From: Citrus sinensis
Taxonomy: Eukaryota; Streptophyta; Magnoliopsida; Sapindales; Rutaceae
Assembly (NCBI RefSeq): GCF_022201045.2
Contig: NC_068560.1
Coordinates: 992,001-1,056,000, forward strand
DNA length: 64,000 nucleotides
Direction of reading: 5' to 3'
Part shown: in pieces, positions 41,310 through 58,995 of the stretch
How the letters are laid out: every line of letters begins with the position of its first letter
Numbering within the stretch: the first letter of the stretch is position 1
Notes under the pieces: model-generated
The model's database searches: none
The model's input: the letters and a program-made list of their open reading frames with translations, nothing else
What the model was told of the DNA's origin: nothing
Made by a program: the position numbers and the translations under genes

Positions 41310-41570
41310 TGTTAGTGATATCGAAAGCAGAGCACAGAAGCAGAGTATGACTGACTGCAGCTGATTAGCTCATAAAAGCTGACTTGGCAAGTTAGTTATC
41401 CAGCTCACCTGAATTGTTGAGTTGGTTCAAGCTTGCTATATAAACGTGTATCTTGTACTCAGATGTTAAGTTGAAGAAATATTAATAAAGTTACAGATTC
41501 ATTTCAATTTCTCTTTCATTTTTCTTAAGCTTTCTAATTAACCAAAGAACTCTTTTCTATAGTTTTGTCA
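41310..41570 (+). repeat. copia 5' LTR
   Basis: 261 bp, TG...CA ends. A TATA-like CTATATAAACG lies at about 41438, followed by an AATAAAG polyadenylation-like signal at about 41483. Confidence 0.97.
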
Positions 41571-41587
41571 TGGTATCAGAGCCACGG

Positions 41588-43937
41588 ATGACGAATATAA
41601 ATCAAAATAATCTTTCCTTCAGCTTTGTTACACCAGTCAAGCTAGATCAGAATAATTTCATTCTTTGGCGCACGCAAGTTCTTACAACTGTGAAAGGAAA
41701 TGGCTTGGAAGGTTTCATTAATGGCGATAACAAATGTCCAGAACAGTTTCTCATTTCTGAGAGTGATATTGAGAGTGTAGTATCAACTGGAAGCTCAAGA
41801 TCTATAAATTCTGACTTTGTAGCATGGATGAAGACAAATCAGCTACTGCTGAGTTGGATGATGTCATCGATCCAGCAAAATCTGCTCTCTACAGTGATCG
41901 ATTGTACAACATCTAAGCAACTCTGGGAGACTCTTACTGGTATGTTTATCTCCCAATCTCAGGCTCGAATTCAAACATTAAGAATGCAAATCCAAACCAT
42001 TAAGAAAGGTTCAATGCATATGGCTGACTATTTTGCTAAAGTCAAACGAATAGCAGATACTTTAGCTTTAGCTGGTAAACCAGTAGAGTTAAGTGATTTG
42101 ATTATGCATGTCCTGACTGGTCTTGACTCATCTGACTATGAATCCTTAGTGACTGCTGTCTTGGCTAGAGGTGATAAGATAACACTGGATGAATTATACT
42201 CCTTGTTGTTGAATCATGAAATTAGAATTGAACAGAAGAGAGGGAAAATTACTAGTGATGTAATGCATAATATGACAGCTAATGTTGCTCAAAGAAACAC
42301 ATATTCTGGTAAAAATAATGGTGGTTTTCAAAAGAATTATGGAGGAAATTTTGGAAATGGAAACAGTTCAGGGTTTGGTGGTTTTAATGGTGGTGCTTCT
42401 GGTAATAGTTCTGGACAATTCAACAATGGAAATAACTTCTCTGATGTTGTTTGTCAAATATGCTACATACCTGGACATGGAGCTTATAAGTGCAGAAACA
42501 GATACAACTCATCATTTGTTCCTCAGAAAAACTATGGTAGAGGCAACTTTAATAGTGGTTTTAGACCTCCTGGACAATTTGGAAGAGGAAGATTTTTTAA
42601 TGGTGGTGGTAGAGGCCCTGGACAATTTAACAACAATTATAATTCACCAAGAGGTTTTGGTTTTCAAGGTGGTTCTGGTTTTCAGGGTAACATAGTGCAT
42701 GCAGAAAATTCCTTTGGCACTCCATCTGCATTTTACTCTTTTACTCCTGGTTCATCAACATATGCTCCAACTGAAACCCCTGACAATAGTGGTCAATACA
42801 ATACCTCTACTTCATCATCTCTGCCTCCTTCAAATCAAAATGTGTCCCCTGAGCTTGTTGAGGATCCCTCATGGTACTTTGACAGTGGAGCAACAAACCA
42901 CATCACTAATGATTTAGGTAAACTTCTTCATTCACAAGCTTATACTGGTGAGGAAAAATTATTTGTTGGCAATGGAAATGCATTGGTTATTAATCATATA
43001 GGATCAGCAATGCTTACAACTTCAACTTCAAAACCTTTATTGCTTAATCATGTCCTTTATGTACCAAACATAACCAAAAACTTGCTTAGTATTTCAAAAC
43101 TTGTGGCTGATAATTTTGTTGTTGTTGAATTTCTTGATAATTCATGCTTTGTCAAGGCCAGGGACACAGGAATAACTTTACTTGAAGGTGTTGCTAAGGG
43201 TGGCTTGTATCAAGTCAAAAACATCTTTTCTCAGTTTTCTCAATCAACTCAGTCAGCTCTTTTCAACTCAGACAGTTTCAATAAACCTGAATCTCTTTTT
43301 GCTTCTTGTGCTATGTCTCATGTCAATAAACCAGAAGTTGTAAAAACCTCTGAACCAAGTCTTCAGTCTGTTTTTTCTGCAGTTGCACTGCAATCAGTCA
43401 GTATGGATGTTTTTCATAGGAGACTTGGGCATCCAGCACCTTATGTTCTCAAAACAACATTCAAAGCTTGTAATGATTCTGCTGTTTTTAATAAGATTGA
43501 AAAATTGTCTTTCTGTAATGCTTGTCAATATGGCAAAAATCACATGCTTCACTTCAATTCAGTAGAAACCAAAACAACATTACCTCTACAGCTGATCTAT
43601 GCTGATCTTTGGGGGCCTTCTCACATTTCTTCTACTCAGGGATACAAATACTATCTCTCTATCCTTGATGACTTTAGTAGGTTTACATGGATATTTCCCT
43701 TATCTGCAAAATCAGATGCCATTGAAGTTTTCTCAAACTTTAAACTCTTCATAGAAAACCATTTGCAGCATAAAATTAAAACTGTTCAAACTGACTGGGG
43801 AGGGGAATTCAGAACCTTTACCTCTTTACTCAAAGCTTCTGGCATACATTTTAGACACCCCTGCCCACATATACATCACCAAAATGGGAGAATTGAAAGG
43901 AAACACAGACACATAGTTGACATTGGCTTAACCCTAC
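41588..43937 (+). pseudogene. copia gag-pol polyprotein, first part (gag, protease, integrase), interrupted
   Basis: The frame opens at an ATG within the primer-binding region; MTNINQNNLSF at 41588 is the likely start. Gag carries the UBN2-type segment LWETLTGMFISQSQARIQTL and then a Gly/Asn-rich region with a CCHC knuckle, C-x2-C-x4-H-x4-C (from about residue 289, CQICYIPGHGAYKC). The aspartic protease has WYFDSGATNHIT (about residue 432). The integrase has an HHCC finger (FHRRLGHP..CNACQYGK) and the D-D-E core: DLWGP, QTDWGGEF and NGRIERKH (about residues 673, 736 and 769). At 43937 the gypsy element interrupts it, and the frame then runs only a few codons into the LTR. Apart from that insertion I see no lesion. 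Confidence 0.96.
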
Positions 43938-45320
43938 TGTTGTGCAAATTTTAATGTACTCGCAAGCGCACGAATCTATTGTAGTATAGACTAATGGTGA
44001 CGAGTGTCGATCCCACGAGGAGGTGGATTTTAATTGTGTAGAATTAATTTTGTAAATGGGTGATTGGATTTATGGTGGAAATGATTTGGAATATGCTAAA
44101 ACTTAAATTAAAATGGTGAGAATAAATTCTAAAATTGGTATTGAAATGGCGAGAATAAATTGACGAGAATTATATTGAAATGACGTACTTGGGTATCTGG
44201 ATCCGTATCAACATGCATCATGGGCTAAATAATCCGTATTAATGTCAATTAAATCATGAGGGGGGAATCCACACCTCATGAACAACGCTCTAATCAATAT
44301 GGTGCTAAGGGCTTATCGTGCCAAATAATAATAACCTTATACTAGAGAGCCGGTGTAACCAAGGCGGTACTAGACAAGATTAGTATTATTTGTCGACGAG
44401 AAGTCAAAACATCCACAAAAACTAGAGGGGAAGAGAAAGTAAATTTACCAAATTAAGCCCATGACACATGTTGAGACTTCACCTTCAACCCAAGCTTGAA
44501 AGAAAATTAGCCACTCATAATTGAACTAGGGGCAAAATGGGAATTTATTAAAATACATAGAAAATACAAGATGGAGAGAGAATTACAGAAAATGGATCCC
44601 AAAAATGGATTCAGAGATATCAAATTAGGGGGGGGAGGCCCCCTTTTTATAGATACATGGAGTAAATCATGGCCATCGGATTAAAAACAGTTTGGACGCT
44701 CAGGATTGCGCCACGTCATCAGTCAACAGTCCACGGTTTGACCACGCGGATGAACAGTAACACGGTTTGACCCGACTTTGAACAGTAACGCGGTTTGACC
44801 CGGATGAACAGTAACGCGGTTTGGTTGAAAATAATCCTGTGTGATGCATGCACCGTACGCGAGATTTTTCGTCCACTGATATGCTGCCACGTCACCATCA
44901 ACAGTACATAAGAATTTTAGTCCAACAGGATCGTGACACCTCATCAGTCAATGCCACATCATCGGTCAATGCCACGTCATCATCCGTCTATGTGAACAGT
45001 GTCGTGAACAGTAACGTATACAGTACCGTACACGTGAATAGTACCGTACATGTGAATAGTGCCATTTTTCCTTTTATGCTCCTCCTAAGGTTTTCGACCG
45101 TCCTGAGTTTAAAAGTGATGTCCGTTTTGCCGTCTGATCTCTCCTTTATTGTGAAATGACTATAATGCCCCTAAAATACATAAAATACTTAATTAAAATA
45201 AAACACATGTAATTAAATCACAAGAAGGTTAAATATATAAAAGTAAGGGTTGTTAGTAAGACTTAAAATGTAAAATGACGGTTTTCTCCTTTATAAATAT
45301 GCATTTTCTAATACTCAACA
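43938..45320 (-). repeat. gypsy 3' LTR
   Basis: 1383 bp, 99.9% identical to the other LTR by eye. The short reading frames seen in it recur identically in the partner LTR and are not genes. Confidence 0.97.
44643..44981 (-). promoter_or_regulatory. LTR promoter: TATA box and ACGT-core bZIP motif cluster
   Basis: On the minus strand, CTATAAAAAG (44652-44643) is a good TATA box. Upstream of it lie GATGACGTGGC (44720-44710 and 44981-44971), GGTGACGTGGC (44896-44886) and the one-off GATGATGTGGC (44963-44953). GATGACGTGG fits the TGACGTGG-type bZIP/unfolded-protein-response element. Between them are repeated GAACAGTAACGCGGTTTGACC-like units. The identical set occurs in the other LTR (55821-56159), which drives the element. 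Confidence 0.6.
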
Positions 45321-47278
45321 CACCCCCCAACCAGCTTATTGCTAGTCCCTAGCAAATAAAGCGAAAACAAAATTCAAATTCAAAATAATTTTTTTTTTTT
45401 TGTTTTAATAGAAACACTCGTATTTATTCCATCAGATTAATGATAACACTCAAATAAAAGTATAAGCATTATCTCCAGTCTAAAGCAACATCACACCCAC
45501 ATCAACCATCCACATGAATTAGCCCAGTAGACTTTGTTTTAGCTACTCTCAAGAATGACATGTCAAACCCCAAAATCTCACTGGAAGTAGTGACACTCTC
45601 ACAAATAAATTAATCCCAATAAAAATAGTCACTCCAATGAATGGTAATTGAGAGAGAAAATAATAAAGAAGTGATATCACATGCTCTCACCAAGATGAAA
45701 TAAATATGCCCTCAGCTTAGAAATAATACGATCTCAAGTCAAATAAAATGTTAGTCAACCCACTTTATTTATCTTTTTTTTTTTTTTTAATTATGCATCA
45801 CTACATCTTTTTAGCCCATATAACTAGCTTCTACTTCAAACTATAGTTCCCTAAAATCAAGAAGGACTTTTATTAGGATGAAACGTAGGCTAAAGACATG
45901 GCTAACAAAGAAGGAAAATAAGGAAAACAAAGTGTATGTTTGAGAAAAATGCAGAGAAATTTTTTTTTTTTTTTTTTTTGGAAGTTGCAAGGTGGATTTC
46001 ACCTATTTTTATTCTTTTGAAACAACAACTTTTGTTTTTGTTTTTGTTTTTGTTTTTATTTTTATTATTTTTTTATTTTTTTATTTTTTTTATTTTTTTT
46101 ATTTTTTTTTTTTGGCACAACTTCACTGAACAACATAATTATTTACATTTTCTCAAACATAAATAGGTGATGGAACTTATAAGACATCGGGTAATACTCC
46201 AAATCGGAGTGGGTCAAGATGATAAGTTGACAAAGAAAATATATATATATTTTTTTTAAAGGCTCAAAAGGGTTAACTATGGATATTTAATAAAAGGGAT
46301 GGCTAGAAAGGCTCAAACGGATCAAAGATGGCCTTTCCATCGTCTTTTAGGGCTCTAAATAACCTTCCATATCTACTAGTTAGATGGGCCTCCAAATGTA
46401 GCAACACACTCTTTTTTCTTTTTTTTTTTATTTTACAATTTTTTTTTTAGGGTTAACTCAAAAGTAATTTAGAGATCGTGTATAAAATAATAAACTGCTA
46501 AGCTGTATAAAGAGTGGGCAAAAGGGTTATTCTCCAAGAAAAATAATAGGCTCAAAAACTCACTTGGTACTTATTATGACATGTTCATTCCTTCAAGCAA
46601 CTCATATATGTCTCCGACATCAACATGTAGAGTAGCAAACATAATGTAACATCACTTAAGACCAAAGATAATACAAATACTAAAATTTAAAATTAATCAT
46701 GTCACCCAATGTTAAAACAAATCACACAAATTTTTTTTTTTTTAAACAACATTCTACCCCCCAACCTATTCTAAACATGAAAGGAAAATATGCATGCAGA
46801 AATGTGAAAATGATGCATAAAAACTAATTAGAAAAGTTACACGTAAAATGATAGAAAACGAAAATGATTTTTTTTTTTTTTTAAAGAAGAAGATGCGTTT
46901 CTAGAGGAAATACACTCCATATTCAGCCATCTTCGACTCAAAAGTTGGAAAATGTATATTTATAGAGGAGAAATTAAAAAGAAGAAAAATAAACATAAAC
47001 ACATAATAAAGAAAAAGAAAATGTCTGAATTTTTTTTTTTTATAAACGATGAAGATGCGTTTCTAGAGTCACTACACTCCATATTCAGCCATCTTCAACA
47101 CAAAAAGTTAGCAACAGTTAGTTTCTACAATAAAAATTAGTAAAAACTTAACCAAAATTCTACAATTGTCGACTATTCCCTCCCCCCAACCAGAACGAAA
47201 CATTGTCCTCAATGTTTGAAAGGAAAGAAGTAGAGTTTAGAAGACATCACCTGGGTGGTGCAACACAGAAGAAAATAT
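45321..47278 (-). other. gypsy 3' non-coding region
   Basis: About 2 kb between the last accessory gene and the 3' LTR. It is rich in A/T homopolymers (for example 45960-46120). It contains the polypurine tract at its LTR end and the 59-bp direct repeat listed separately. No gene recognised. Confidence 0.6.
46889..47109. repeat. 59-bp direct repeat inside the gypsy 3' region
   Basis: GAAGATGCGTTTCTAGAG, then ACACTCCATATTCAGCCATC, occurs at 46889-46947 and 47051-47109 with few differences, 162 bases apart. Confidence 0.85.
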
Positions 47279-47947
47279 TTATAGGCGGAGAGTTAAATCT
47301 AATTTGTACTTCTTACTGCTGCTACTGTTACCATCATTATTTGGACGCTCCAACACGAAGGTCCAGGGGTCTGGCTCCGGTCTATAAGCTTGTAACAGAT
47401 CAAGTAGCTCATTAGCAGTGTGAGCACAAATAAAAAGTTTTTTCACATTAGCGGGAATGAAATAGTTTTTTATTGCATGGTTAAGAAATGCGATAAAGCC
47501 ATCATAAAAGTTATTGACATTTAACAAACCGATGGGTTTCTGGTGAATGTGTAGATGGGCCCAAGATGCTAGTGTCATAAGTACCTCTAGTGTTGCAAGA
47601 TCTCCTGGAAGGAAAATAAAAGCATCAGCATAATTAAGCATTTCAGTTATTCTTTCTTGCATACCTGAGACGACTAACTCTTCTCCAGTTGATGAGTCAG
47701 ACGAACTGCCCAATGGTTTTAGGACTCTTGGGATGATGCCTAACACTTGACTTCCTCTGATAAAAGCTGCTTCTGAGACCATTTTTGATAACCCTCGATT
47801 ACCTCCTCCATACACCAAGTGTAATTTTCTCGCTGCTATGCTTCGACCAAGATCTATGGCTGCCTCAACGAACTCTTTATGTTTGCCATAGGTAAATCCA
47901 GAAAGCACACAAATGTTCTTGAATTGTCTATTGGGAGTAGCTGCCAT
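47279..47947 (-). CDS. LOG-like protein (cytokinin riboside 5'-monophosphate phosphoribohydrolase family) carried by the gypsy element
   Basis: LOG enzymes release active cytokinin from its ribotide in the cytosol. This intronless frame of 222 codons (start MAATPNRQFKN; the frame is open upstream to 48118) covers the whole family length. Recognisable blocks: KNICVLSGFTYGK (family FCGSxxG region), HLVYGGGNRGLSKMVSEAA, QVLGIIPRVLKP, ERITEMLNYADAFIFLPG, and KPIGLLNVNNFYDGFIAFL. The hallmark PGGxGTxxE is changed to PGDLATLEV: two glycines and the catalytic Glu are replaced, while the Arg of the RKAEM motif is kept as RITEM. Classical activity is therefore unlikely. Host LOG genes usually have several introns, so an mRNA-derived capture is inferred. 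It lies third after pol, on the same strand, in the place of an env-like gene. No stop or frameshift interrupts it. Confidence 0.87.
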   Translation of the reverse strand: MAATPNRQFKNICVLSGFTYGKHKEFVEAAIDLGRSIAARKLHLVYGGGNRGLSKMVSEAAFIRGSQVLGIIPRVLKPLGSSSDSSTGEELVVSGMQERITEMLNYADAFIFLPGDLATLEVLMTLASWAHLHIHQKPIGLLNVNNFYDGFIAFLNHAIKNYFIPANVKKLFICAHTANELLDLLQAYRPEPDPWTFVLERPNNDGNSSSSKKYKLDLTLRL

Positions 47948-48267
47948 TGTGATACTTCTCGAAAACAATTTGTGAGTGCTTGACAAAAAAGAAATCACAT
48001 TTAAGAGTCTCGGTGATAGTGGGTCATGGTTGTGTATGAGGTAATATGTTAGTGTCAAATAACGCGTAAAGCACGTGGCTCGCAAGTCAAAAAGAAAACA
48101 GTAAAAAGGAAAAAGCAAACAGTAATAAAATTATTAAAGACAATAATGCAAACAATAAGACAATAGTGAAATAAAATAACAATAAAGTAAAAGGATATTT
48201 ACAGGTAGTTGCGACTGTGGCTCACATCTTCCTCTGGTTTTACGTCCAGAAACGGCTTGAACGCCCT

Positions 48268-48825
48268 CTATGGGTCGAGGATAGGCTTCCTATCCAGTTT
48301 TCTTATAAACTGGCAAACAGGGTCGTTTATAGTCAGATTCCCGAGACTATATCGTGCATGCTCTTTCTGGAATAATGGCCATAACTGGAGAATCGCTCCT
48401 TGCACATATCCACTGGGATGCGTTTCAAGAGACAAAAGGATATCATCCAATGACTCCTTATTCAAGCCATCCTTAATGAATTGAATCTTATCTTCCCTAT
48501 TATCAGACACCATTCCTAAAGAACATGGGTTTTTATTGCAACTCATTCTGGCACACTTATGACAAGCAACAGAAATTCTTCGAGCTCGTCGTTTTCTTGC
48601 ATAATTTCCTTTACCACAACCAGGCATGAATGCAATAAATTTTGGAGGTAACTCACCTGCTGATCGTACTTTAGCCTCGATTAACCAACGGATGTCAGCA
48701 GGTATGTTATTCCTCATGAGTAATCGCATGCGTTCGGACCGAGCTTTATAAATCGTAAGGAGGGCATTCTGAGGAAGTGAAGGGAATCGCTTGTGAAGCT
48801 TCGCTAGAATCTCGTTTCTGTCCAT
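48268..48825 (-). CDS. 185-residue basic Cys-cluster protein, resembling carlavirus-type nucleic-acid-binding proteins
   Basis: The frame starts MDRNEILAKLHKRF with an in-frame stop just upstream. The central segment GKGNYARKRRARRISVACHK is an Arg/Lys-rich arm. It leads into a Cys cluster C-x2-C-x4-C-x4-C (CHKCARMSCNKNPC, about residues 87-100). This arrangement of a Gly-x-x-Tyr-Ala-Arg..Arg-Arg-Ala arm followed by a zinc-finger-like cluster recalls the small nucleic-acid-binding proteins of carlaviruses and relatives (family knowledge). The cluster spacing differs and I cannot run a profile search, so homology is not proven. The C-terminal half (IQFIKDGLNKESLDD..HPSGYVQGAILQLWPLF) is helical-looking and unlike those viral proteins. 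The stop is TAG, followed by 24 more open codons to a TAA. It lies between the 91-residue frame and the LOG-like gene on the element's coding strand. Confidence 0.6.
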   Translation of the reverse strand: MDRNEILAKLHKRFPSLPQNALLTIYKARSERMRLLMRNNIPADIRWLIEAKVRSAGELPPKFIAFMPGCGKGNYARKRRARRISVACHKCARMSCNKNPCSLGMVSDNREDKIQFIKDGLNKESLDDILLSLETHPSGYVQGAILQLWPLFQKEHARYSLGNLTINDPVCQFIRKLDRKPILDP

Positions 48826-48966
48826 ACCTTCGCCTCAGAATATCAGTTATTATGGGAAACTGAAGTAACCGACTTGATTGTCACGGAGTACCGTTATCCG
48901 CCACTTCACCGGGGTAACAAACTAAAGCACACAAATAGAAAAACAAATTAAAACACACAAAGAAAA

Positions 48967-49242
48967 TTAAAATCGTCCTCTTATTGAATTTACCTCAAGC
49001 TCCAACTGGATGTCGTAAACACTTCTCTCAATGTCTCTGAGTTGGTGTTCTAAACCCTCAACATAGGCTACTAACTCTGGTGGTTGTAGAGCCCAAATGC
49101 GTTGTGTTTTACAAAATTGAATCTGCCTTTTGAGATGAGTTTTGACACGTTGAAGTGGTTTAAGAATGTTCAGGAGGAACGGTCTAAGTATGAGACTCAT
49201 GATTAAAAATGATAAGAGAAAACTTAATGGTAAAATAAACAC
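48967..49242 (-). CDS. small hydrophobic/coiled-coil protein after pol
   Basis: A 91-codon frame lies 57 bases downstream of the pol stop; a second start at 49200 would give 77 residues. The N-terminus is strongly hydrophobic (MFILPLSFLLSFLIMSLIL), consistent with a membrane anchor or signal segment if the first ATG is used. A basic patch (RVKTHLKRQIQF) follows, then a heptad-like segment (AYVEGLEHQLRDIERSVYDI) that could form a coiled coil. I do not recognise the family. Position and orientation match the first gene of an Athila env-like region, but similarity to an env-like protein is not visible. Confidence 0.5.
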   Translation of the reverse strand: MFILPLSFLLSFLIMSLILRPFLLNILKPLQRVKTHLKRQIQFCKTQRIWALQPPELVAYVEGLEHQLRDIERSVYDIQLELEVNSIRGRF

Positions 49243-49299
49243 ACTTATGCAAAAACAATTTCAATTAGCAAAAGAATAATATAAAGAAAGAAAGAAAAA

Positions 49300-52200
49300 T
49301 CAAATCAACGAAAAGAAAAAAAAACAATTCAAATTTGGTGGGTCACTCAAATTTATTTCGGTGTCTTCTCCACGTGGTTGGTATTCTAGATATGGCTTTA
49401 ATCTTTGACCATTAACTTTAAACGTGACACCGTTCTTTGGGTCCTTAATTTCAATTGCCCCATGTGGAAAAACAGTATGAACAATAAAGGGACCAGACCA
49501 ACGAGAGCGTAACTTACCTGGGAATAGGTGCAAGCGAGAATTGAACAAAAGCACTTTCTGACCTGGGGTGAAAGATTTTCTCATAATTTGCTTGTCATGG
49601 AAGACTTTCATTCGTTGCTTGTAAATCTTGGCATTTTCGTACGCGTCATTGCGAATTTCGTCAAGTTCTGCCAGCTGTAATCTTCTTTCTGAGCTGGCTT
49701 GCTGCATGTCAAAATTGAATTTCTTGATGGCCCAATATGCACGATGCTCGAGTTCCACAGGTAGGTGGCAAGCTTTTCCATACACTAGCCTGTAGGGTGA
49801 CATCCCAATCGGGGTCTTGAAAGCCGTTCTATATGCCCATAATGCATCATCAAGTCTTAATGACCAATCTTTCCTGTCTGGCCTCACCGTTTTTTCTAAT
49901 ATGTGCTTTATTTCTCGATTGGATATCTCAACTTGGCCACTGGTTTGCGGATGATACGGAGTTGCCACTTTGTGTGTGATTGAATACTTTGTCAAAAGAG
50001 CTTTGAATGCTTTGTTACAAAAGTGGGCACCACCATCACTGATTATCGCTCGTGGGAATCCAAAGCGTGAAACAATGTTGCTTTTCAAAAATGCTATCAC
50101 CACCTTGTGATCATTGGTCCTACATGGAATTGCTTCTACCCATTTCGATACGTAGTCAACAGCAACCAATATGTATTGATGGCCAAAAGACGGGGGAAAG
50201 GGTCCCATGAAGTCGATACCCCATACGTCAAAAATCTCAACCACTAAAATTGGATTTAGTGGCATCATGTTCCTTCGTGTAATGCTCCCCATTCGTTGAC
50301 ACCTATCACATGAAGAACAGAAAGTGTAAGCGTCTCGAAATATAGATGGCCAATAGAAACCACATTGTAAAACTTTAGTCGCTGTTTTCTTAGCGCTGAA
50401 ATGGCCTCCACAAGCTTGTTCATGGCAGAATGAAAGGATATTCTGAATTTCACTTTCTGGGACACATCGTCTAACAATTTGGTCTGCACAATACTTGAAC
50501 AAATATGGGTCATCCCAAAAGAAATTCTTTATCTCTGCAAAGAATTTAGCCTTATCTTGCTTGGTCCAATGCTCTGGAAGTTTACCTGTAACAAGATAAT
50601 TAACTATATCAGCATACCAAGGTAATACTTCCACACTCATTAATTGTTCATCTGGAAATGACTCATTTAATGGTAATTGTTCTATAATTGTGTCAAAATG
50701 GAGACGAGAGAGATGGTCCGCCACAACATTTTCTGTCCCTTTTTTATCTTTGAATTCCAAGTCAAATTCCTGCAAAAGTAACACCCAACGAATTAGTCTA
50801 GCTTTTGCATCTTTCTTTGTGAGAAGATATTTAAGAGCAGCATGATCTGTGAACACAATTATTTTACAACCAATGAGATAAGATCGAAATTTTTCCAATG
50901 CAAACACTACTGCTAGCATTTCTTTTTCAGTAGTTGAATAGTTCAACTGTGCATCATTCAATGTCATACTAGCATAGTAAATAACATGGGGAATTCGATC
51001 AACTCTTTGTCCTAATACTGCTCCTACTGCATAATCAGATGCATCACACATGAGCTCAAATGGTAAGCTCCAGTTTGGGGCCTGAATGATGGGTGATGAT
51101 GTCAACAACCGTTTTAATTTTTCAAACGCCATAAGACATGAATCATTAAAGATAAAAGGTACATCCTTAGCAAGTAAATTGCATAAGGGTCTAGAAACTT
51201 TGCTAAAATCTTTAATGAAACGTCTATAGAAACCAGCATGCCCAAGGAAAGATCTTACTTCTCTGACTGTTCTGGGTGGAGGAAGATTAGAAATGAGATC
51301 CACCTTGGCTTTGTCAACCTCAATACCTTTGCTCGAAATGATGTGACCGAGAACAATACCTTGTTTTACCATAAAATGGCATTTCTCCCAATTTAATACC
51401 AAGTTCTTCTCGACACATCTCTGCAAAACTAGTGTTAGATGATGTAAACATTGATCAAACGAGTCACCAAAGACAGAAAAATCATCCATAAAGACTTCAA
51501 GAAATCGTTCAACCATATCAGAAAAAATGCTTAGCATGCATCGTTGAAATGTAGCAGGTGCATTACATAATCCAAATGGCATTCTTCTATATGCAAATGT
51601 GCCAAAAGGGCAAGTGAAAGTAGTTTTCTCTTGATCTTTTGGTGCTATGGGAATCTGATTATATCCTGAGTAGCCATCTAGAAAGCAATAAAATTCATGT
51701 CCTGCTAATCTATCAAGCATTTGATCAATAAATGGTAAAGGAAAATGGTCTTTACGTGTGACAGAATTCAACTTTCTATAATCAATGCATACACGCCATC
51801 CTGTAGTCACTCTAGTGGGTATCAATTCATTATCAGCATTGGTAACTACTGTGACTCCTGACTTTTTAGGGACAACTTGTACAGGACTGACCCATGAACT
51901 ATCAGAAATGGGGTAAATGATACCTGCATCTAATAGCTTAAGGACTTCAGTTCTAACCACTTCTTTCATATTAGGATTTAACCGACGTTGCATTTCCCTA
52001 GTAGATTTAGCATTTTCATCAAGGTGAATGTAATGCATGCAGTCTACTGGATTTATACCTTTGATGTCTGCTATGGTCCATCCTAATGCTCCTTTGTGCT
52101 CTTTTAAAACATCCAACAACTTACCTTTTTGTTCGTCATTGAGGGATGATGAGATGATTACCGGTAGAGTACTTTCTTCTCCCAAAAATGCATATTCCAA

Positions 52201-53724
52201 TGTGTTGGGTAATGGTTTGAGCTCGAGTTTCGGTGGTGATTCTGATGATGGGATGAGTTTCTTCTCTGATGGTGCTAGTTGTTCAACTCTTGACTTCCAT
52301 TTATTAGTGTCCATAGATGGTGCTGAGTCAAGCAGGGCGTTGACCTCATCAACCGATCTGTCAATATCAAAATCAAAACCAAAGTGAGTTAAACATGTTT
52401 GTAAAGGATCATCACTAAGGTTTGAAACAAAAGTATCATCAACTAATGCTTCAATTAAATCCACATCAACAATTCCATCATCTGCACTGTGAGGTTGTTT
52501 GGCAATGTTGAAGATGTTCAGCTCCATAGTCATGTTGCCGAAAGACAACTGCATATTTCCAGTCCTGCATTGAATGTGAGCATCCGCAGTTGCCAAGAAA
52601 GGTCGGCCTAGAATAATGGGGATGTGCTTCCTTGAATCCTGTATTGGTTGAGTGTCAATTACAATGAAATCAACAGGAAAATAAAACTTGTCTACCTGGA
52701 TAAGCACGTCCTCCACAATACCACGAGGTATTTTCGTGGACCGATCTGCAAGTTGTAACACCACTGGAGTTGGGTGTAATTCTCCCAGTCCAAGTTTCAC
52801 AAACACAGAGTAAGGCAATAAATTTACACTAGCTCCTAAATCCAACAAAGCATTCTCAATTGTGTGGTTCCCTATACTACATGAGATAGTGGGGGAGCCT
52901 GGGTCTTTGCATTTTAAAGGAATTTTATGTTGGAGTATAGAACTAACGTTTTCTGTTAAAAATGCCTTCTTTTGAACATGCATATTTCTCTTTTTAGTAC
53001 AAAGGTCTTTAAGAAACTTGGCATAAGATGGAACTTGTTTAATAGCATCAAGCAAAGGGATGTTAACACTTACCTGTTTGAAGATTTCGAGAATCTCACC
53101 TGTAGATTTTCCCTTTTTTCCTTTCGCTAACCTCTGAGGAAATGGAGCTTTGGGAACGTATTCTCGTGGGTTGGCTTCTTCTCTCTCCTCCGGTGGTGAG
53201 TCCTCAACGTTTACAGGTACAATTTGATTTTCCTTTGTCACCGGCATCTCCACTTTGTTGTCGATTTCTTTTCCTTTTCGCAAGGTCATTATTGCTTTGA
53301 CCTCTCCATGCTGCTGTGGTGAACTGGTACTCGCTTCATGCACTCCTTTAGGATTAGGCACTGGTTGACTTGGAAATTTTCCTTTCTCAACAGTCATTGC
53401 CAAGGTCTGAACTGAAGAAGCGAGTTGTCCCACCATCTTCTCGAGGCTTGAAACTGATTGAGCTTGTGAGTTGAAGCCCGCTCTCAATTCATTTCGTAGT
53501 CCATCAATGGTGCGGTTCTGTTGCTCAATCGTGGAGTGAGTAACATTCTTGAAATTTTGGAATGCATCCTCCCATGGTCTGGGTTGAGAGTAGTTCTGAT
53601 TCTGATTGAATGGTCTAAATGGGGGCTGAGAGGCTTGAGGAATTTGTTGCATTGGTGGAGCTGGAGCTGCTGGTCCATTTTGTTGGAATCCTTGAGACCA
53701 TGAAAATTGGGGTGGTCTCTCCAT
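49300..53724 (-). CDS. gypsy pol polyprotein (end of gag, protease, reverse transcriptase, RNase H, integrase)
   Basis: A 1474-codon open frame whose first codons ([15 protein letters not shown]) are the C-terminal part of gag in a shifted frame; the apparent ATG is probably not a true start. Domains: aspartic protease [15 protein letters not shown] (about residue 290), reverse transcriptase with [17 protein letters not shown] and the FMDD catalytic box (745-748), RNase [18 protein letters not shown] (about 890), and integrase. The integrase has an HHCC finger ([16 protein letters not shown], about 1098-1141) and the D-D-E core ([34 protein letters not shown], about 1170-1265). No internal stop is present. 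All catalytic residues I can check are in place, so the enzymes look functional. Confidence 0.96.
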
Positions 53725-54704
53725 CCAGGATTATATGTGTTGGAGTATGGGTTGTAATTCGATGGTTTTCTCATTACACCTATGGCATTGGCTTGATCTG
53801 AGTATGAGTCATGGTCATGTGGTTCTGTTGATTTAGCAGTCGATAACGATGCTATTTGTCGAGCAAGACCTTCAACCATCTCCTTGACTTCTTTGATTCC
53901 CGAAGTTGACTCGCCAATTTGAACCTCATTTACTCCCTTAATTCGTCTAGTATTCCTGAGTGATCGACTCCGTTGTTGGGAATTATCCGCTTGTCGCTGG
54001 AAGAATTCCCAAATCTCTGATGCACTTTTTGACATTAGCTCTCCTCCACTTGTTGCCATTAGCCATTCTTGCACATTTGGCAATAATCCCTCCAAAAAGT
54101 ATTGGCATTGGTGCCATTTCTCGTACCCATGATGTGGACACTTCAAGAGTAGCCCATTGAATCGCTCCCAAGTTTCGAAAAATTGCTCGTCTTCTCTCTG
54201 GGTAAACTCTGAGATTTCCCTGCGAATAGCATTGGTTTTATGCACTGGGAAATATTTATTTAAAAATTTTGTAACCATTTGTTCCCATGATGCAATGCTA
54301 TTAGCAGGCAATGTATTAAGCCATGAACGAGCTCTATCTTTTAAAGAAAATGGGAATAGTCTAAGTTTAACATCATCATCTGAAAAATTCTCATATTTGA
54401 ATGTTTGACAAATGGCATGAAAATCATTCAAATGATTATATGGATCCTCATTTTCTAGGCCATAAAATGTAGGGAGACAATTTAACACACTAGGTTTTAA
54501 TTCAAAACTCCTAGCAGCTACATTTGGGTATCTTATGCATGACGTGCTCAAATTAGCTAAGGGACTAAAATAGTCCTTAAATGACCTCTCCTGTGGTGCT
54601 TGTAAATCCATTTTATTTTTAACGTGTTTGTGTGTGCGAAGTGTTTTTTCTAGTTCAAGGTCTATAGGTTCAAGATTAGGTAATAATGACCTACGACCAT
54701 GCAT
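53484..54704 (-). CDS. gypsy gag, frame-shifted from pol
   Basis: The start is probably [20 protein letters not shown] at 54704 (open to 54764; [10 protein letters not shown] at 54611 is an alternative). The retrotransposon gag domain is clear: [72 protein letters not shown]. After [10 protein letters not shown] the sense continues in the pol frame as SWSQGFQQ. The shift lies at the A-run 53703-53706 (plus strand), where one base is missing relative to a continuous gag-pol. The remaining codons down to 53484 are out of frame. A lost base in a homopolymer (mutation or sequencing error) is the simplest reading; programmed frameshifting is an alternative. Confidence 0.9.
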
Positions 54705-54764
54705 GCAAAATAAATAAAATAAAAATAAAGATGCAAACAAAAAGAAAAATAAAGATGGGAACAA

Positions 54765-55090
54765 AACAAATAAAAATAAAGAAGAGGGAGAAATTACGAT
54801 ACTAACCTTATTGCGCTATTACAACATTTCTATAAAAATACACAAAAATAAATACGTGAAAGAAATTAACTAAAAATTAAATTAATAAGATAAACAAAAA
54901 AAATTACAAAGAAAAATAAATGGAAAATTAAATTACAAAATTTTAAAGAAGAGAAAAAAAAAAGAAATACTAACCTTTAAATGTAGATTCACTTTTTTTT
55001 TTCTTTTTTTTTTAATAATAAAAAAAATACAAGAAAACAAATAAAAGAAATTATTCACAAAAATTAATTCTATGAATTAAAATTACTTAC
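54765..55090 (-). other. gypsy 5' leader
   Basis: About 330 bases of A-rich untranslated leader between the primer-binding site and gag; no features recognised. Confidence 0.6.
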
Positions 55091-55110
55091 CTCCCCGGCA
55101 ACGGCGCCAA
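55091..55110 (-). other. primer-binding site, tRNA-Asp type
   Basis: On the minus strand, TTGGCGCCGTTGCCGGGGAG starts five bases after the 5' LTR. TGGCGCCGTTGCCGGGGA is complementary to the CCA-tailed 3' end of plant tRNA-Asp (established knowledge). Confidence 0.92.
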
Positions 55111-55115
55111 AAACT

Positions 55116-56498
55116 TGTTGTGCAAATTTTAATGTACTCGCAAGCGCACGAATCTATTGTAGTATAGACTAATGGTGACGAGTGTCGATCCCACGAGGAG
55201 GTGGATTTTAATTGTGTAGAATTAATTTTGTAAATGGGTGATTGGATTTATGGTGGAAATGATTTGGAATATGCTAAAACTTAAATTAAAATGGTGAGAA
55301 TAAATTCTAAAATTGGTATTGAAATGGCGAGAATAAATTGACGAGAATTATATTGAAATGACGTACTTGGGTATCTGGATCCGTATCAACATGCATCATG
55401 GGCTAAATAATCCGTATTAATGTCAATTAAATCATGAGGGGGGAATCCACACCTCATGAACCACGCTCTAATCAATATGGTGCTAAGGGCTTATCGTGCC
55501 AAATAATAATAACCTTATACTAGAGAGCCGGTGTAACCAAGGCGGTACTAGACAAGATTAGTATTATTTGTCGACGAGAAGTCAAAACATCCACAAAAAC
55601 TAGAGGGGAAGAGAAAGTAAATTTACCAAATTAAGCCCATGACACATGTTGAGACTTCACCTTCAACCCAAGCTTGAAAGAAAATTAGCCACTCATAATT
55701 GAACTAGGGGCAAAATGGGAATTTATTAAAATACATAGAAAATACAAGATGGAGAGAGAATTACAGAAAATGGATCCCAAAAATGGATTCAGAGATATCA
55801 AATTAGGGGGGGGAGGCCCCCTTTTTATAGATACATGGAGTAAATCATGGCCATCGGATTAAAAACAGTTTGGACGCTCAGGATTGCGCCACGTCATCAG
55901 TCAACAGTCCACGGTTTGACCACGCGGATGAACAGTAACACGGTTTGACCCGACTTTGAACAGTAACGCGGTTTGACCCGGATGAACAGTAACGCGGTTT
56001 GGTTGAAAATAATCCTGTGTGATGCATGCACCGTACGCGAGATTTTTCGTCCACTGATATGCTGCCACGTCACCATCAACAGTACATAAGAATTTTAGTC
56101 CAACAGGATCGTGACACCTCATCAGTCAATGCCACATCATCGGTCAATGCCACGTCATCATCCGTCTATGTGAACAGTGTCGTGAACAGTAACGTATACA
56201 GTACCGTACACGTGAATAGTACCGTACATGTGAATAGTGCCATTTTTCCTTTTATGCTCCTCCTAAGGTTTTCGACCGTCCTGAGTTTAAAAGTGATGTC
56301 CGTTTTGCCGTCTGATCTCTCCTTTATTGTGAAATGACTATAATGCCCCTAAAATACATAAAATACTTAATTAAAATAAAACACATGTAATTAAATCACA
56401 AGAAGGTTAAATATATAAAAGTAAGGGTTGTTAGTAAGACTTAAAATGTAAAATGACGGTTTTCTCCTTTATAAATATGCATTTTCTAATACTTAACA
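55116..56498 (-). repeat. gypsy 5' LTR (promoter LTR)
   Basis: 1383 bp. TATA box CTATAAAAAG at 55830-55821 and the same ACGT-core cluster as the partner LTR (55888-56159). Transcription reads toward decreasing coordinates into gag. Confidence 0.97.
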
Positions 56499-56503
56499 CC
56501 TAC

Positions 56504-58773
56504 TAGCTCAAGCTCACTTGCCTCTTAAGTTTTGGTGGAATGCTTTTCACACAGCTGTCTACCTAATCAATAGACTTCCTACTCCAGTTTTAAATAACAT
56601 TTCACCTTTTCAAAAATTGTTTAATCAAACACCAAACTATTCTTTTCTCAGAACCTTTGGCTGTGCTTGTTATCCAGCCTTGAGACCATACAATAAACAC
56701 AAGTTTGATTTCAGAACTTGCAGATGTATATTCCTTGGTTATAGCTCTTATTATAAGGGTTATCTGTGTCTTCATTCTTCAGGAAGAGTTTATACATCCA
56801 ACCATGTTGTTTTTGATGAAAGTTCCTTCCCTTATGTCTCTGGTTTAGATTTTTCATCTCCAAATAAATGTCAGTCTCCAGTTTCTTTCTCAGAGTCATC
56901 TTTCTCTTCTTCTTCTTCTGTTCCTTCTTTTGTTCATCTGCAGGTTCCTTTAGCAACATCCTCAACAAGTATTCCTGATGCTTCACAAACACACAGAAAC
57001 CAAAATTCTTCTCCTTCCTTACCTACTGAATCATTCAGTCCTTCCACACATCATTCACCAGCTCATACATTACCTTTATCTCAATCCACTGGTCATCAAA
57101 TGATAACCAGGTCAAAAGCTGGCATCTTCAAACCAAAAACTTATTTGTCAGCTTTATTAGCTCAGCCTTCTGAACCTCTTTCAACATCTCAAGCACTTGC
57201 TGATCCTATGTGGTTAAAAGCTATGCAAGAAGAATTTCAGGCTCTTCGACACAATAAGACATGGGAACTGGTATTGCCTGATACACATGTTAAAATAGTT
57301 AGAAATAAATGGATTTTCAGAATCAAATACAACTCTGATGGATCTATTTCAAGATATAAAGCTCGGCTGGTTGCTAAGGGGTTTCATCAAACCCATGGAG
57401 TTGATTATACTGAAACTTTTAGTCCAGTGGTTAAAGCCTCAACAGTAAGGGTAATTCTCAGTTTAGCAGTTCTTAACAAATGGGTGATTCGACAAGTGGA
57501 TGTCAACAATGCCTTTCTCAATGGCATTTTAGTTGAAGACGTGTACATGGCACAACCTGAGGGTTTTGTGAACTCTGCTAAACCTCATCACATTTGCAAG
57601 TTAAAGAAAGCTATATATGGCCTGAAACAGGCTCCTAGGGCTTGGTTTGATAGGTTCAAAGATGCAATGCTAACTCAGTGGCATTTTCAGCACTCCAAAT
57701 CAGACAGCTCTCTCTTCTATAAATGGATAAATGGTCATGTAATCTTGGTCCTGGTTTATGTTGATGATATCATTCTCACTGGTTCCAATCCTCAGCTAAT
57801 TCAGCAAGTGATTAAAGACATGCATCACACTTTTGCTCTAAAAGATTTGGGGGATCTCAATTATTTTCTTGGAATTGAAGTAGTTAAGTCAGCAACTGGT
57901 CTTTATCTGTCTCAAGCAAAGTATATTGCTGATATTTTGGCAAAACATGATATGGTTTATAGCAGTCCAGTCTCTACACCTATGTCTACTAGCCAATATC
58001 TTACAAAGGATTCAGGTAACAACATTCAAAATGTGTCTCAATACAGAAGTATTGTAGGTGCCTTACAATATGTTACCCTTACACGACCTGATATAGCCTA
58101 TTCAGTTAATAAGCTCAGTCAATTCTTATCTAATCCACGCACTTCTCATTGGGATGCTTGTAAAAGGTTGCTGAGATACTTGAAAGGCACCTTACATCTT
58201 GGTCTGCATTTTCACATGATTGGAGCACTTCAACTACATTGCTTCACAGACTCTGATTGGGCTTCTGATCGAGATGACAGGAAGTCAGTAGCTGGTTATG
58301 CAGTCTATCTTGGTCCAAACTTAGTCTCTTGGTCATCCAAGAAGCAAGCAATGGTATCCAGGTCAAGCACAGAAGCTGAATACAGAGCTTTGGCCCATGC
58401 TACTTCAGAAGTGATATGGATACAATCTCTTCTTCAAGAGCTGCAAATTAAACTTAGTACTACTCCCATGATGTGGTGTGATAATCAAGGGGCTATTGCT
58501 CTTGCATACAATCCTGTCTATCATGCAAAAACAAAGCATGTTGAGCTGGATATTCACTTCATTCGAGACAAGGTTGCAACAAAGAGTATTGAAGTCAGCT
58601 ATGTGCCTAGTGATGATCAGTCAGCTGATATATTAACCAAAGCACTTTCATTCAAGCAGTTTGATTATCTGCGACACAAGCTGAATGTCTATCCTGGACA
58701 TTTCAGCTTGAGGGGGGATGTTAGTGATATCGAAAGCAGAGCACAGAAGCAGAGTATGACTGACTGCAGCTGA
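56504..58773 (+). pseudogene. copia polyprotein, second part (reverse transcriptase, RNase H)
   Basis: Continuation of the copia frame after the gypsy insertion. Skipping the insertion and the duplicated CCTAC, the two parts are in phase; together they would have 1540 codons including stop. The end of integrase (LPLKFWWNAFHTAVYLINRL) comes first. Reverse transcriptase follows, with MQEEFQALRHNKTWELV, RYKARLVAKGFHQTHGVDY, VDVNNAFLNGIL and the YVDD box at 57757-57768. RNase H starts with FTDSDWASDRDDRKSVAGY and SRSSTEAEYRALA. The stop lies inside the 3' LTR, as is common. As it stands this half lacks its own start and promoter. Confidence 0.96.
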
Positions 58774-58979
58774 TTAGCTCATAAAAGCTGACTTGGCAAG
58801 TTAGTTATCCAGCTCACCTGAATTGTTGAGTTGGTTCAAGCTTGCTATATAAACGTGTATCTTGTACTCAGATGTTAAGTTGAAGAAATATTAATAAAGT
58901 TACAGATTCATTTCACTTTCTCTTTCATTTTTCTTAAGCTTTCTAGTTAACCAAACAACTCTTTTCTATAGTTTTGTCA
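58719..58979 (+). repeat. copia 3' LTR
   Basis: 261 bp, three differences from the 5' LTR, preceded by the polypurine tract and followed by TTATT. Confidence 0.97.
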
Positions 58980-58995
58980 TTATTACTATATGATA

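Follow-up and report, generated by a model that had tools for sequence, protein, structure and literature searches.

The DNA analysed here (hereafter the window) is a stretch of 64,000 nucleotides from Citrus sinensis (assembly GCF_022201045.2, contig NC_068560.1, positions 992,001 to 1,056,000 of the forward strand) and harbours a complete Athila-type Ty3/gypsy retrotransposon on the minus strand. The element is young, its two long terminal repeats (LTRs) differing at 2 of 1383 sites, and carries three open frames on its own coding strand between pol and the 3' LTR, which follow one another from the pol side in the order ORFa, a nucleic-acid-binding-protein-like frame (NABP) and a LOG-like frame. 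As first listed, the open frames span 47279-48118, 48268-48825 and 48967-49242, all on the minus strand, which agrees with an earlier reading of the bare sequence (the original prediction) that had proposed an accessory cassette at these positions. We find that the accessory cassette is real and under selection and that it belongs to an abundant Athila-type element of Citrus. Its features are the following:

47279-47947, minus strand: LOG-family protein of 222 aa from the ATG at 47947, matching PF03641 and without the catalytic Glu
47282-47302, minus strand: LDLTLRL at the C-terminus of the LOG-like protein, a tail of the ethylene-responsive element binding factor-associated amphiphilic repression (EAR) type
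48268-48825, minus strand: basic NABP-like protein of 185 aa with the cluster Cys88-x2-Cys91-x4-Cys96-x4-Cys101, whose relatives match the Carla_C4 and Viral_NABP profiles
48967-49200, minus strand: ORFa, 77 aa from the ATG at 49200, amphipathic/coiled-coil-like by eye
48841-48905, minus strand: RE1, a conserved noncoding block directly upstream of NABP
48196-48325, minus strand: RE2, covering ~19 codons at the NABP 3' end, the TAG stop codon and the ~70 nt that follow it, a candidate structured RNA

To place the cassette among its relatives, the host genome was searched (299.7 Mb in 11 contigs, the window being G000:C5:992001-1056000); because such searches score only the best candidates, they give minimum copy numbers and favour young copies in the samples. 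First-look candidates numbered 1883 for NABP and 2701 for LOG, and no stop was present in 149 of the 150 best NABP and 131 of the 139 best LOG candidates scored. Since these match lists favour good copies, we additionally sampled copies by a pol stretch, blind to the cassette, and read the neighbouring DNA of the 40 copies scored out of 1613 candidates, the window's own included. Within this sample of the window's family (family A), ORFa was present in 40/40 copies (full and open in 33), NABP in 40/40 (full and open in 33, partial in 2) and LOG in 39/40 (full and open in 38). A second family with the same frame order (family B) was found via the copy L023. From it, 20 copies were chosen by hand to cover a range of identities, 19 of which came from rows that list no NABP stop; they show 63-68% protein identity to the window NABP and 70-78% to the window LOG; an ORFa homologue with 49-59% amino-acid identity to the window ORFa is present in 19/20. 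NABP was full and open in 17 and LOG in only 7 of these copies, fractions that are not a rate in a hand-picked sample. The three frames are thus accessory genes of high-copy Athila-type elements. Frequent stops, which would have spoken for decay, are not a feature of family A, whereas older family B copies do carry them.

Comparison between the families revealed purifying selection on each frame. With six family B copies, mean dN, dS and dN/dS (nonsynonymous and synonymous divergence and their ratio) were 0.157, 0.756 and 0.21 for LOG (234 pairs), 0.231, 0.959 and 0.24 for NABP (228 pairs), and 0.348, 0.869 and 0.40 for ORFa (216 pairs), none of these ratios being near 1. We complemented this with a polymorphism set of 60 family A copies (40 pol-anchored and 20 LOG-anchored), restricted for each frame to copies that cover at least 90% of it (59, 57 and 56 for LOG, NABP and ORFa); variant codons carrying multiple changes were set aside (10, 5 and 8). 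Singletons were taken as mostly post-insertion changes and shared variants as mostly carried during replication, and the neutral expectation was calculated with a transition/transversion weight of 4; all resulting p-values are approximate, as copies are related and gene conversion is possible. Singletons matched the neutral expectation (LOG p 0.33, NABP p 0.19, ORFa p 1.0), and shared variants were short of amino-acid changes for LOG (p 2.5e-6) and NABP (p 9e-4) and borderline for ORFa (p 0.07). The contrast between singletons and shared variants reached p 0.0036 for LOG, p 0.069 for NABP and p 0.0002 when pooled. All nine single-base stop variants in family A were singletons; the LOG stop of copy L046 is absent among them and probably lies in the set-aside multi-change codons. 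Purifying selection therefore maintains the three frames, ORFa being borderline in polymorphism. An explanation of the frames as neutral passengers, i.e., captured fragments awaiting decay in a young element, could draw on the 2/1383 LTR differences and on private mutations that look neutral; between-family dN/dS values of 0.2-0.4 and the constrained shared variants rule out neutral decay, and we regard this explanation as largely refuted and hardly credible. Family A thus lacks both signs named in advance as speaking against the cassette, its absence from other copies or a dN/dS near 1 with frequent stops, and the claim that the cassette belongs to the element is borne out by its presence across copies and in a second family, under purifying selection.

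The LOG-like protein is a clear member of its family, with matches to PF03641 (E 8.8e-28, 97.5 bits vs a cut-off of 27) and to the Arabidopsis At2g37210 chain (E 5.6e-44); the part of the frame upstream of 47947 (to 48118) is an extension ahead of the ATG. We compared seven element LOGs with AtLOG3, AtLOG8 and PaLOG at 14 active-site positions, the residue set being that named for CgLOG (PMC4979012). Seven of the 14 positions were changed in all seven element LOGs: catalytic Glu122 to Ala, Val or Thr; Gly116 to Asp or Asn and Gly118 to Ala, so that two phosphate-loop glycines are gone; Lys100 to Ile; His97 to Gln or Glu; Glu125 to Thr or Lys; and Ser19 to Phe, a position at which PaLOG deviates as well (Ala). 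Met96, Arg99, Thr119, Glu121 and Trp129 were retained. Accordingly, the motif PGGxGTxxE is replaced by PGDLATLEA/V. Among the best 120 of 615 protein matches, position 122 holds Ala in 107, Thr in 7, Asp, Ser, Gly or Val in a single protein each, and a gap in 2, i.e., no Glu in the 118 covered proteins; the 59 family A and 20 family B genomic copies have Ala, Thr or Val there, and Glu in none. Within the same sets, Gly116 is lost in the 117 covered proteins and in 79/79 genomic copies, and the catalytic Arg is mostly kept (99/108 covered proteins, 77/79 genomic copies). Position 122 is precisely where two Protein Data Bank chains of PaLOG, 5zbj and 5zbk, differ (Glu vs Ala), and we infer that 5zbk is a designed mutant.

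An active cytokinin enzyme, the reading implied by the original prediction, by which the element would raise cytokinin and favour dividing cells where transposition is possible, would fit the LOG homology and the retention of Arg99, Thr119 and Glu121 in the seven proteins compared. We rejected this candidate, which appears very improbable given the absence of the catalytic Glu from the 118 covered proteins and 79 copies, the changes of Gly116 to Asp, Gly118 to Ala and Lys100 to Ile in most, and the PaLOG chains that differ at the very same site. The expected LOG homology held; the protein is predicted to be a pseudoenzyme and unlikely to work as a cytokinin enzyme. A dead subunit could instead act as a dominant negative by pairing with host LOG and lowering meristem cytokinin activation, the tail being incidental. 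LOGs are dimeric with a pocket built by both subunits (PMC4979012), and the protein is constrained although the catalytic Glu is lost, both in favour of this idea. However, heterodimers are doubtful because identity to Arabidopsis LOG3 is ~40% (by eye on the alignment), and the kept LDLTLRL tail would be left unexplained, which makes such interference improbable. Exons of host LOG genes were observed as well. Regarding annotation, the element LOG accounts for many Citrus gene models that bear the name cytokinin riboside 5'-monophosphate phosphoribohydrolase (among P0236-P0355), and some of them fuse it to NABP.

The tail itself ends in an EAR-type LxLxL motif, the consensus form of EAR (PMC9956375, PMC7446885), which is present and conserved on the element LOG. 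Exact LDLTLRL was found in 57/59 family A and 13/15 family B copies covering the tail; among the best 120 of the 615 related proteins, 63 have it exactly and 85 have LxLxL within the last 9 aa. Family A and young family B copies retain LDLTLRL as their last seven residues, whereas the linker ahead of these diverges (proportion of nonsynonymous differences, pN, 0.225), and synonymous changes occur inside the tail codons; constraint therefore acts on the tail peptide. TOPLESS is known to be bound by a pathogen effector that carries an EAR motif at its C-terminus (PMC7446885).

The middle frame had been described as a basic Cys-cluster protein of virus-like character, and profile searches of its relatives support this view. 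In a set of 19 NABP family members to which the window's belongs, 18 matched Carla_C4 (best 1.3e-6) and 16 matched Viral_NABP (best 2.9e-8) at E ≤0.1. All 8 chosen relatives passed the Carla_C4 cut-off and 5 reached that of Viral_NABP. The Viral_NABP match of the relative P0018 extends over 83 residues including the basic Cys-rich core, and by this length exceeds a short zinc-finger motif. As judged from these profiles, NABP is distantly homologous to the nucleic-acid-binding proteins of flexiviruses, and it is a member of a large family that occurs in several rosids. The protein search returned 1025 matches; those named by organism among the best 120 were all from plants, viral NABPs not being retrieved, and organism-named relatives (best 120 of each list) came from Citrus, Xanthoceras, Acer, Populus and Rhamnella. 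A pattern scan of the viral collection gave 159 pattern matches and no NABP relative among them. For the cassette proteins, the closest organism-named matches among the best listed were from Citrus x changshan-huyou. Viral cysteine-rich proteins act as silencing suppressors, and p12 of chrysanthemum virus B (CVB) is a transcription factor that induces hyperplasia (PMC12172455).

NABP is framed by RE1 and RE2, both common to families A and B and to a contig designated L113. Conservation at the nucleotide level marks a stretch of ~115 nt that spans the NABP stop codon: identity between families is ~97% in the RE2 centre vs roughly 60-85% in the surroundings, and dS is 0.09 in NABP codons 166-185 vs 1.18 in codons 1-165. 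This synonymous dip is milder against L113, with proportions of synonymous differences (pS) of 0.24-0.32 vs 0.62-0.69. RE2 may fold into several hairpins. Its folding z-score is -2.67 in family A and -1.52 in family B, where hairpin 2 contains a mismatch, and that of RE1 is only -1.14; an alignment of 14 RE2 sequences gave 35 pairs, three of them with double changes, and a weak covariation term of only -0.24. An Rfam search with E up to 1 yielded no family for RE2; its one match, SNORD24, lies elsewhere and below the cut-off. Readthrough of the NABP stop may be behind the conservation that follows it: A, B and L113 share the TAA that closes the in-frame extension, and a similar peptide continues after a lost NABP stop in P0063, P0085 and P0087. 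As the four post-stop changes between A and B are all non-synonymous by eye, nucleotide constraint is suggested, but L113 adds synonymous ones. Splice signals near RE1 and RE2 are plausible by eye. These blocks bear on the alternative that the cassette serves the element itself, with NABP acting at RE1/RE2 to chaperone, export or package the element's own RNA rather than to suppress silencing, and the LOG-like protein as a structural part of the same complex. It would account for the synonymous constraint on RE2 and for the way in which RE1 and RE2 flank a basic, cysteine-cluster NABP in A, B and L113; however, the EAR-type tail is left unexplained, and covariation in RE2 and folding of RE2 in family B and of RE1 are weak. 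We consider this alternative somewhat unlikely.

L113 is a 3.3-kb contig (DAIEQH010000041.1, 1-3330) filed in a Candidatus Nomurabacteria metagenome bin and is evidently plant retroelement DNA, with the end of an Athila-like gypsy pol (71% identical in protein to the window pol) followed by RE1, NABP and RE2. ORFa and LOG are both absent from the contig. Because pol and NABP occur here without LOG or ORFa, the cassette appears to have been built stepwise, and the older module is probably NABP together with the blocks on either side of it, a conclusion that rests on one contig. The original prediction was therefore right that the cassette moved with the element, whereas its three genes do not look like one original unit. 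Divergence between families A and B further differed along the element: pS was 0.78 for pol (compared with one B copy at near-saturated sites), 0.57 for NABP codons 1-165 and 0.49 for LOG, with p 6e-6 for pol vs NABP and p 7e-11 for pol vs LOG when sites are treated as independent. By pol, family B is nearer to L113 (0.66) than to family A (0.78); by NABP, A and B are the closest pair (0.57 vs 0.62 and 0.68 for the L113 pairs). This suggests that the 3' part passed between element lineages after pol divergence.

We tentatively propose that NABP counters silencing or escorts the element's RNA, and that the pseudo-LOG scaffolds corepressor recruitment, a reading that we place a little short of an even chance. 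By analogy with its viral relatives, NABP would bind nucleic acid and protect element RNA or dampen silencing. The LOG-like protein would fold, probably as a dimer, and serve as a scaffold from which its tail may engage TOPLESS-type corepressors, and such binding could redirect or sequester host repression; the expression or handling of NABP RNA is probably under the control of RE1 and RE2. Several observations weigh against this proposal. On the LOG side, LxLxL is missing at the end of 35/120 protein matches, some of them truncated models, and pN over the last 11 LOG codons (0.109) is close to that of the LOG core (0.126), so that the tail is no more constrained than the fold. Ten effectors with LxLxL failed to bind TOPLESS, so the motif is not sufficient (PMC7446885). 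The protein may still bind ligand or have an altered chemistry, since five active-site residues are kept and Ser19 varies in PaLOG too. Two AlphaFold models are poor (mean predicted local distance difference test scores, pLDDT, of 55.3 and 35.1), and fold, dimerisation and tail exposure of the LOG-like protein consequently rest on sequence. On the NABP side, the window protein alone stays below the Pfam cut-offs (Carla_C4 E 0.011, 16.2 vs 20.9 bits; Viral_NABP E 0.11), and transfer may have run from virus to element or in reverse. A more elaborate version, in which a silencing-blunting NABP and a TOPLESS-recruiting dead LOG form a two-pronged host-manipulation kit on a lineage-swapped 3' module framed by RNA elements, seems unlikely.

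The remainder of the element has the structure expected of an Athila-type element with near-identical LTRs, as had been claimed, with the Ty3/gypsy order of protease, reverse transcriptase, RNase H and integrase by Pfam domains, two mismatches between the LTRs and a 5-bp target site duplication:

43938-56498, minus strand: whole element, 12,561 bp, delimited by the LTR pair and the target site duplication
55116-56498, minus strand: 5' LTR, 1383 bp, with 2 mismatches vs the 3' LTR
43938-45320, minus strand: 3' LTR, from the LTR pair comparison
43933-43937 and 56499-56503: target site duplication CCTAC, 5 bp, flanking the element
55092-55109, minus strand: primer binding site TGGCGCCGTTGCCGGGGA, read from the sequence, which we take to be of the tRNA-Asp type, of the Athila kind
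45321-45332, minus strand: polypurine tract GGTTGGGGGGTG, read from the sequence, adjoining the 3' LTR
53484-54764, minus strand: gag frame (PF03732, E 4.2e-20)
49300-53724, minus strand: pol with protease, reverse transcriptase, RNase H and integrase (Pfam)

Pfam reported no separate second RNase H in the pol of the window element. In the window copy, gag and pol overlap in different frames at 53484-53730. The noncoding stretch from LOG to the 3' LTR contains a 77-nt direct repeat (46867-47105; 88% identical, starts 162 nt apart). The element is surrounded by a copia retrotransposon (41310-58980, with direct repeats at 41310-41571 and 58719-58980), whose gag-pol frame (41570-43954) is split by the insertion. 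ORFa had been described as hydrophobic and coiled-coil-like, of which the second part stands by eye. Its ATG position is common to both families; with the ATG at 49200, the hydrophobic stretch is mostly a non-ATG extension that is absent in family B (hydropathy peak 2.56 in family A, mostly upstream of the ATG, and 0.35 in family B). With regard to the env-like gene that may follow pol in Athila relatives, the two frames beside ORFa are LOG-like and NABP-like. ORFa is itself unlikely to be env-like with its drop to 0.35 in family B, hydropathy having been computed on ORFa only. A Pfam search of the three cassette frames gave no match to Athila ORF-1.

Steinbauerova 2011 reportedly described two Athila-like elements similar to LOGL4. 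Most Ogre/Tat/Athila elements have extra frames (PMC6317226); the window element resembles Athila-type elements with 3' extra frames in its gypsy pol order and in the sense frames from pol to the 3' LTR, and differs in that its frames (77, 185 and 222 aa) fall under the 250-codon limit of that survey. Gypsy consensus sequences from C. sinensis, C. clementina and P. trichocarpa have been reported to contain a YgdH/LOG domain (PMC9289625, citing Steinbauerova 2011) and probably represent the same LOG-bearing elements, so that a LOG in Citrus gypsy elements is not new. The relevant section of PMC9289625 names just the LOG domain and mentions neither a loss of catalysis nor an EAR-type tail, an NABP or a selection test. 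It also describes orchid gypsy elements that likewise keep a cellular-type protein as an extra frame, an AlkB-type RNA demethylase; that protein is active in vitro, whereas the element LOG appears dead by sequence. NABP resembles the flexivirus NABP/cysteine-rich proteins (PF01623, PF05515) in the profile match shared by P0018, and differs in being retroelement-encoded, in a conserved C-terminal half beyond the viral profile and in its Cys spacing (C-x2-C-x4-C-x3/4-C). A C-terminal LxLxL is shared with HaRxL21-type effectors (PMC7446885), except that it sits here on a retroelement LOG-family protein known from its sequence. Other accessory genes include an extra frame of another family in sunflower, for which modulation of silencing was suggested (PMC11728184), a viral helicase in insect LINEs (long interspersed nuclear elements; PMC4686597) and extra frames in rotifer elements (PMC5408684).

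In the open-licence literature, most subscription journals lying outside this scope, no report was found of an NABP in plant retrotransposons or of a dead LOG in retroelements. The LOG part of the cassette is thus known, and no description was found of the NABP, the Glu loss, the tail, the exchange of the 3' part or the conserved blocks; no search was aimed at an EAR-tailed LOG. Whether LTR retrotransposons encode proteins that counteract silencing or rewire host transcription is, to our knowledge, largely an open question. As the cassette offers constrained and abundant genes in a crop genome, one for a virus-type NABP and one with a repressor-type tail, this question can be addressed with ordinary assays. 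Furthermore, mis-named gene models of the element LOG would inflate counts of the Citrus LOG gene family.

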